From: a bacterium
Lineage (GTDB): Bacteria; Patescibacteriota; Patescibacteriia; JAHIZJ01
DNA: 34,210 nt
Assembly: GCA_030699685.1 (NCBI GenBank)
Contig: JAUYLJ010000011.1
Coordinates: 1-34,210, forward strand
Direction: 5' to 3'
Positions 4,709-5,941 of this stretch are shown one piece after another; the first letter of the stretch is position 1; every line of letters starts with the position of its first letter. A program made the translations under genes and the position numbers. Below the pieces are notes generated by a model that was not told where the DNA came from, made no database searches, and saw only the letters and a program-made list of their open reading frames with translations.

Positions 4709-5170
4709 TTACTTCAGGGTAACAGTCGCGCCGCCTTCTTCAAGTTTCTTCTTCATCTCCTCAGCTTCGGCCTTCGGTACACTCTCCTTGACCGCAATTG
4801 GAGCGGACTCCACCAGCTTTTTCGCGTCTTGGAGACCGACGCCCGTGATTTCTTTCACCGCCTTGATCGCGCCGATCTTATTTGATCCGGCATTTGTCAG
4901 CTCGACGGTAAATTCCGATTTCTCTTCTTCGGCCGCACCTTCGGCAGCGGGAGCAGCCCCGGCCATCATCATGGGAGCTGCGGCTGAAACTCCGAATTTG
5001 TCTTCGAGTACTTTGACAAGTTCGGAAAGCTCAAGCACGCTGAGTTTCTCAATCTCTCCCACGAGACCTTTGAATTTCTCAGGCACTTCAACTTCTTTTT
5101 TTTCTTCCGTTACAGCCTCAACCGGTTTTTCTTCGGCGGCCGCTTCGTTTTTCTGTGCTTCGTCTGCCAT
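4709..5170 (-). CDS. rplL: 50S ribosomal protein L7/L12 with extended N-terminus
   Basis: [22 protein letters not shown]...hinge...[44 protein letters not shown]. Confidence 0.97.
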
Positions 5171-5224: not shown

Positions 5225-5752
5225 TTAACCACCCTGTCCTTTCTCACCCACTGCTTTCAGAACTGTTATCAAGCCTCGCAAATTGCCTGAGAGCACGTTG
5301 ACAAAGCCGGTCAGAGGGGCCTTTATCGTGTACACGGTTGTGGCAATCAATTGCTCTTTACTGGGTAAGTCGGCCAGCGCCTTAACTCGTTCGACTTCAA
5401 GATACTGACCCTCCAGCCAACCGCCGATCAAAGCAACGCCCTCTTTACCTTTGGAAAATTCCTGCACCGATTTCGCAGCGCCAACTTCATCATGGCTTGA
5501 TACCACTCCAACGATCCCCCGCACCGGATCCAGATCGAGTCCGGAAAATTTGACGTTTTCAAGCGCCCGGCGCAACAGTGTTTTCTTGGCCACCAGCATG
5601 GAAGAACCCTTTTCGAAGAGATTATTGCGCAGTGTATCAGAGTCAGCCACGCTCACACCCTCAAACGTCGCTACTACCGTTAGCTTGTTGTTTTTCAATC
5701 CACCTTCAAGATTGGCGACAGTGTCTTTTTTCTGATCTTTTGATTTGGCCAT
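5225..5752 (-). CDS. rplJ: 50S ribosomal protein L10
   Basis: Position directly upstream of rplL; translation typical of L10 (KNNKLTVVATFEGVSVADSDTLRNNLFEKGSSMLVAKKTLLRRAL). Confidence 0.95.
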   Translation of the reverse strand: MAKSKDQKKDTVANLEGGLKNNKLTVVATFEGVSVADSDTLRNNLFEKGSSMLVAKKTLLRRALENVKFSGLDLDPVRGIVGVVSSHDEVGAAKSVQEFSKGKEGVALIGGWLEGQYLEVERVKALADLPSKEQLIATTVYTIKAPLTGFVNVLSGNLRGLITVLKAVGEKGQGG

Positions 5753-5768
5753 TTTTCGCTAATGTTAC

Positions 5769-5907
5769 AAAAAAATCTGTCGCGCAGACAGACTGAGGCG
5801 GCTTCGATAAGCCCGTTCAAATAACCTCGGAAGGCAGTTAAGTAATTAACCAGTTTCCCAGTTAACCAATCAACTATTATCCCCTTTGGGACCCTCTGTC
5901 TGCGGCT
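5769..5907 (-). promoter_or_regulatory. rplJ leader: predicted transcription attenuator (terminator plus competing antiterminator)
   Basis: Minus strand: TCTGTC-TGCGC-GACAGA followed by T7 (5792-5769). The upstream arm CGCAGACAGA (5904-5895) is a perfect 10-nt complement of TCTGTCTGCG (5792-5783), which contains the terminator 5' arm. Confidence 0.65.
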
Positions 5908-5913
5908 GTAGGC

Positions 5914-5941
5914 AGTATAGCAAGAGGAAAATGCCTGTCAA
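5914..5941 (-). promoter_or_regulatory. rplJ-rplL promoter
   Basis: Minus strand TTGACA (5941-5936), 16-nt spacer, TATACT (5919-5914). Confidence 0.75.

Follow-up and report, generated by a model that had tools for sequence, protein, structure and literature searches.

A predicted L10-controlled transcription attenuator in a Patescibacteriia rplJ-rplL leader, with an antiterminator drawn from the 5' strand of the L10-binding site

The window analysed here, the whole 34,210-nucleotide stretch of contig JAUYLJ010000011.1, carries on its minus strand the gene pair rplJ-rplL, preceded by a structured leader with the following features.

5914..5941, minus strand: promoter TTGACA-N16-TATACT (TTGACA 5941-5936, TATACT 5919-5914) with TG preceding the -10 element (pattern scan, sequence)
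5898..5906, minus strand: kink-turn 5' strand GCCGCAGAC, made up of the NCC outer-stem strand and AGAC (RF00557 alignment, independent model, CCRYAGAC of the relatives)
5895..5904, minus strand: CGCAGACAGA, 5' strand of the 10-bp antiterminator helix (folding, covariation)
5892..5896, minus strand: GAGGG, 5' strand of the kink-turn inner stem, pairing with CCTTC at 5830-5834 (folding, covariation)
5877..5891, minus strand: TCCC-AAA-GGGG hairpin, then the conserved UAA (5879-5877) of the L10 site (RF00557 alignment)
5835..5876, minus strand: 42-nt inserted hairpin between the UAA and the kink-turn 3' strand (folding, RF00557 alignment)
5824..5834, minus strand: kink-turn 3' strand CCTTCCGAGGT, comprising the inner-stem partner CCTTC, CGA and the outer-stem partner GGT (RF00557 alignment, model)
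5795..5828, minus strand: competing hairpin GAGGT (5828-5824)/GCCTC (5799-5795) with inner GGCTT-ATCG-AAGCC (folding, swapped-partner energies)
5783..5792, minus strand: TCTGTCTGCG, antiterminator 3' strand, overlapping the terminator 5' arm (folding, covariation, shuffles)
5769..5792, minus strand: intrinsic terminator TCTGTC (5792-5787)-TGCGC-GACAGA (5781-5776)-T7 (5775-5769) (pattern scan, conservation)
5225..5752, minus strand: rplJ, ribosomal protein L10, 175 aa, ATG at 5752 (PF00466, E 9e-17)
4709..5170, minus strand: rplL, ribosomal protein L7/L12, 153 aa (PF00542 and PF16320)

The promoter matches the consensus at 11 of 12 positions and is the top of 3 pattern-scan matches in 2.2 kb, with 1.3 expected; its position places the expected +1 at about A5907. 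Pattern scanning alone finds terminators no better than chance (3 found, 2.6 expected). Promoter and terminator are each weak evidence taken singly, and the terminator hairpin (about -8.5 kcal/mol) becomes convincing because it is conserved in relatives. Directly upstream of the promoter, on the same strand, lies a gene of the amino-acid-kinase family that resembles uridylate kinase (PF00696, 5946-6650), from whose stop codon the promoter begins at most 5 nt away. At the other end of the leader, the T-run is separated from the rplJ ATG by 16 nt (5753-5768) that contain no Shine-Dalgarno-like sequence; short A/T-rich spacers at this place are also seen in many relatives.

An earlier note on this DNA had pointed out the promoter, the CGCAGACAGA segment close to the transcription start and its perfect complement over the terminator 5' arm, and all of these are present. 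The segment at 5904-5895 is a perfect Watson-Crick complement of TCTGTCTGCG at 5792-5783, a match that none of 2000 dinucleotide shuffles of the upstream leader reached, which rejects chance complementarity. Folding of the leader gave -50.6 kcal/mol as compared with -35.5 +/- 3.9 kcal/mol in shuffles (z -3.9, 0/200), and the minimum-energy fold includes the long-range helix, which excludes the terminator. The two competing structures that the note had proposed looking for by folding, antiterminator and terminator, were found and are mutually exclusive.

The link to L10 leaders that had been suggested for this locus could be traced through Rfam, relatives and a model of our own. At the gathering threshold an Rfam search gave no match in the window; in a relaxed search RF00557 (L10_leader) aligned over its full length at 5761-5923 with 26.4 bits (E 0.013), short of the cut-off of 44. 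The alignment identifies CCGCAGACAG as the kink-turn 5' strand and CCGAGG (5830-5825) as the 3' strand, with GGGATAA carrying the UAA; which of the conserved blocks are kink-turn and which UAA was decided from the L10 site as published (PMC4538822). The inserted 42-nt hairpin is the likely cause of the low score. Both same-family relatives exceed the cut-off (44.4 and 44.6 bits), and among class genomes 174/240 match at E<=1 and 85/240 lie over the cut-off. A covariance model of the kink-turn domain only, built from 29 leaders of other families with the family of the window left out, matches 5822-5908 with 26.6 bits (E 1.3e-6) as the sole significant match in the genome. The eight pairs of this model are 98.3% formed, with 48 two-sided changes compared with 13 in shuffles. 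The outer-stem pair is formed in 113/129 leaders (65 expected) and covaries, and the TAA of the L10 site is found in 124/129. Kink-turn strands and UAA motif thus lie upstream of a Pfam-identified rplJ according to the RF00557 alignment, the leaders and the model alike, and on sequence comparison the predicted L10 site is the kink-turn of the 5' segment CCGCAGACAGAGGG with CCTTCCGAGG, together with the UAA motif and the inserted 42-nt hairpin. In the 23S rRNA of the same genome the L10 region reads GACAACUAGG...CUAGUUAAGU, similar to the kink-turn strands of relatives; it is too unlike the window leader to serve as proof of mimicry.

Conservation was assessed at class and phylum level, since family and order searches gave only three genomes; a public genome scan with the L10 protein returned only two distant matches, the nearest named being Kaiserbacteria and Dojkabacteria. 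The resulting set of 153 leaders comprises the window, 150 leaders from the class search and two named genomes, and is nearly all of one class. In 144/153 the kink-turn 5' motif is followed by a hairpin and a T-run, a typical relative reading CCRYAGAC...(G)UCUGYGG-loop-CCRCAG(A)-U6; the terminator of the window is 4 nt off the consensus register. The 5' motif and the terminator were picked in relatives independently of their mutual pairing, and counts are approximate because the terminators come from a simple scorer of which some picks are probably wrong.

Among family representatives, the duplex of 5' strand and terminator arm (RNAduplex) is stronger for matched partners, at -14.2 kcal/mol, than for between-family swaps, at -10.5 kcal/mol (0/2000). 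Permuting partners only within families gave 0/5000, which rejects shared ancestry alone as the source of the match. The covarying columns are -1, +2 and +3. Pairing with the terminator arm is seen for the base ahead of CC in 95/130 leaders (63 expected), for the third position in 122/130 (96 expected; A-U 57, G-C 55, G-U 10) and for the fourth in 120/130 (112 expected); of the two relatives in the window's own family, one has C-G and the other U-A as its first pair. As the outer-stem pair covaries too, the base ahead of CC has to fit both of its alternative partners. Of 129 callable leaders in the class, 116 are wired through the 5' strand, 3 through the 3' strand, 5 are ambiguous and 5 neither; 5' wiring occurs in one or more leaders of 51 of the 54 families. 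The earlier note had proposed a terminator/antiterminator switch based on pairing of the transcript 5' end with the terminator 5' arm, and had named a lack of conservation or covariation of the 10-bp pairing in relatives as grounds against it; the pairing is conserved and covaries, and the proposal is supported.

The same note had taken the GAGG...CCTC hairpin for the ligand-sensing part. The hairpin exists, but the L10 kink-turn uses its GAGG as 3' strand, and because of this the hairpin competes with the L10 site for that strand; a role as sensor is rejected. We read GAGGT/GCCTC as a second antiterminator helix that would capture the kink-turn 3' strand, with weaker support than the 10-bp helix. 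Pairing of the kink-turn 3' strand with the sequence just upstream of the terminator averages -5.7 kcal/mol in the leaders as compared with -4.6 kcal/mol for swapped partners (0/2000), and reaches -11.1 kcal/mol in the window. The bases of the kink-turn 5' strand (5898..5906) are likewise those of the antiterminator 5' strand. With both kink-turn strands paired elsewhere, the antiterminator state would take the L10 site apart from both sides.

The energetics of the growing chain are in keeping with a switch. At 85-112 nt an anti-antiterminator (AAT)-like fold is the minimum-energy structure at most lengths or close to the minimum, and from 124 nt onwards, when the terminator 5' arm has emerged, the antiterminator dominates with a probability of 0.89-0.95. 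At full length, in an energy model without kink-turn contacts, the antiterminator has -50.3, the terminator -45.3 and the terminator with AAT -42.9 to -44.5 kcal/mol. Anatomy, energies and covariation agree that AAT, antiterminator and terminator exclude one another. We put at roughly 85% the probability that the leader is an autogenous transcription attenuator of rplJ-rplL, combining an L10(L12)4-binding RNA domain with an antiterminator wired through the 5' strand, as predicted from comparison and thermodynamics. In the mechanism we propose, the first ~85 nt would fold as the L10 site, in which the kink-turn of 5'-GCCGCAGACAGAGGG and CCUUCCGAGGU-3' together with the UAA would act as the AAT. 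With free L10(L12)4 in excess over rRNA, the AAT fold would be held, the terminator would form and rplJL would be switched off. With L10(L12)4 scarce, the growing transcript would refold, its kink-turn 5' strand pairing with the terminator 5' arm over 10 bp and its 3' strand being captured by GCCUC; the terminator would then be blocked and rplJL transcribed. The energy that L10(L12)4 would have to supply, about 6-7 kcal/mol by our estimate, appears plausible in view of the 33 nM affinity in B. subtilis. We infer L10 binding, the direction of control, and termination and its efficiency; by way of the switch, L10 probably turns off its own genes.

According to Yakhnin et al. (2015, PMC4538822), L10(L12)4 in B. 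subtilis binds the rplJL AAT with a Kd of 33 nM and promotes termination; the antiterminator there directly follows the AAT, has 8 nt in common with it and overlaps the terminator by 5 nt. The window resembles this attenuator in the gene pair, the kink-turn and UAA site and the three-state logic of anti-antiterminator, antiterminator and terminator. The earlier suggestion that the leader works like L10 leaders elsewhere therefore stands for the logic, but not for the wiring, in which the L10 site contributes its other strand to the antiterminator: as the description reads, the B. subtilis antiterminator is formed from the AAT 3' strand, whereas that of the window runs from the AAT 5' strand over 10 nt to the terminator arm, and the AAT 3' strand goes into a separate hairpin. 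A leader peptide is present in B. subtilis; the window lacks this feature, with only 16 nt from the T-run (5769) to the ATG (5752). Compared with RF00557, the window shares the full-length alignment and the conserved CCGNAGACAG, UAA and CCGAGG, and differs in the 42-nt inserted hairpin and the sub-gathering score; the family's consensus terminator, CCCCUU/AAGGGG, lacks complementarity to the 5' strand, and the Rfam annotation includes no antiterminator pairing. The E. coli rplJL leader is alike in autogenous control by L10(L12)4, which is predicted here, and differs in acting through translational repression (PMC4538822, PMC10931766) where we predict transcriptional attenuation. A 2015 paper (PMC4647458) notes that E. 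coli and B. subtilis couple the L10 site to differing mechanisms. Judged from its sequence, we class the window as a homologue of L10 leaders whose expression platform differs, and not as a B. subtilis-type member, because of its score below the RF00557 threshold, the strand used and the absence of leader-peptide features.

Outside the class, both wirings occur. Of the leaders in other classes of the phylum, 61 were callable; 25 of these are 5'-wired, 18 are 3'-wired like B. subtilis, 10 are ambiguous and 8 neither. Examples of the 5' type are CCAAAGAC/GUCUUUGG and CCGAAGAC/GUCUUCGG, where the pairing covaries with sequences differing from those of the class; CCGAG/CUCGG is an example of the 3' type. 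Both pairings beat all 2000 permutations, which were unstratified by family and control relatedness less well. It seems likely to us that one aptamer has two alternative attenuator wirings, through the kink-turn 5' or 3' strand, which have been switched within one phylum, with the 5' wiring nearly fixed in the class. If so, 5' wiring requires one RNA strand to suit three partners at once, namely the kink-turn, L10 and the terminator arm.

An arrangement as in Bacillus, with the GAGG...CCTC hairpin from the kink-turn 3' strand as antiterminator and the pairing of 5' strand and terminator incidental, would fit the position of the B. subtilis antiterminator immediately downstream of the AAT with its 8 shared nucleotides, the existence of the GAGGT/GCCTC hairpin and the 18/61 other-class leaders wired in this way. 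We nevertheless consider it improbable for the window, where GCCTC ends short of the terminator arm, so that the hairpin alone would leave the terminator unblocked, and where the 3' strand pairs with that arm at only -5.8 kcal/mol as opposed to -18.1 kcal/mol for the 5' strand; moreover, the 5' pairing covaries both across and within families.

That the long-range helix encloses the whole leader in its most stable fold could also mean that the helix belongs to the L10-stabilised structure and that L10 activates rather than represses. Helix and kink-turn, however, need the same AGAC bases and are mutually exclusive, and the fold that L10(L12)4 stabilises in B. subtilis is the AAT, with termination promoted as the outcome (PMC4538822), which makes activation highly improbable. 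Regulation of E. coli rplJL at translation (PMC4538822, PMC10931766) raises the alternative of a kink-turn that binds L10 and represses translation, beside a hairpin and T-run that are no regulated terminator. This we regard as very unlikely, as the hairpin and T-run stand between kink-turn and ATG in 144 of the 153 leaders, the terminator 5' arm covaries with the 5' strand and no site overlapping the start codon was seen.

We found no description of a 5'-strand-wired L10 attenuator in a literature search that left out most subscription papers, and priority is unproven. A 2024 review describes the L10(L12)4 mRNA element as widespread and notes that mechanisms outside Bacillus may diverge and merit experimental study (PMC10931766); the leaders described here supply an answer that can be tested in a large group with few cultured members, probably Patescibacteria/CPR as judged from the nearest named matches and genomes of ~1 Mb, in which more than 100 related genomes have the 5'-strand wiring in common. 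They would show in clear form how a single RNA site for a protein can be linked to a terminator via either strand, and the two wirings predict opposite outcomes of one simple oligonucleotide test. In B. subtilis an oligonucleotide against the AAT 5' strand cut termination from 41% to 6% (PMC4538822, Table 1); under 5' wiring the same kind of oligonucleotide would be expected to increase it, since the antiterminator would be lost as well.

Beyond the switch itself, the relatives show a recurrent AAAGGUCGA motif, which is not in the window leader and is present in 34/144 leaders, spread over 14 families, where shuffles predict 2.3. Its place is, for example, after the terminator in L049, L066, L107 and L146 and between kink-turn and terminator in L011, L024, L063 and L103, and at 12-198 nt before the ATG it is no plain Shine-Dalgarno sequence. 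Some relatives (e.g., L026, L053, L112 and L141) carry a second type of kink-turn, AGACC-NNNNGG, whose 3' strand ends in GCAGG, GTAGG, TTAGG or CTAGG and not in CGAGG; such endings occur in 28/129 leaders, and 3 more have CGAGA.
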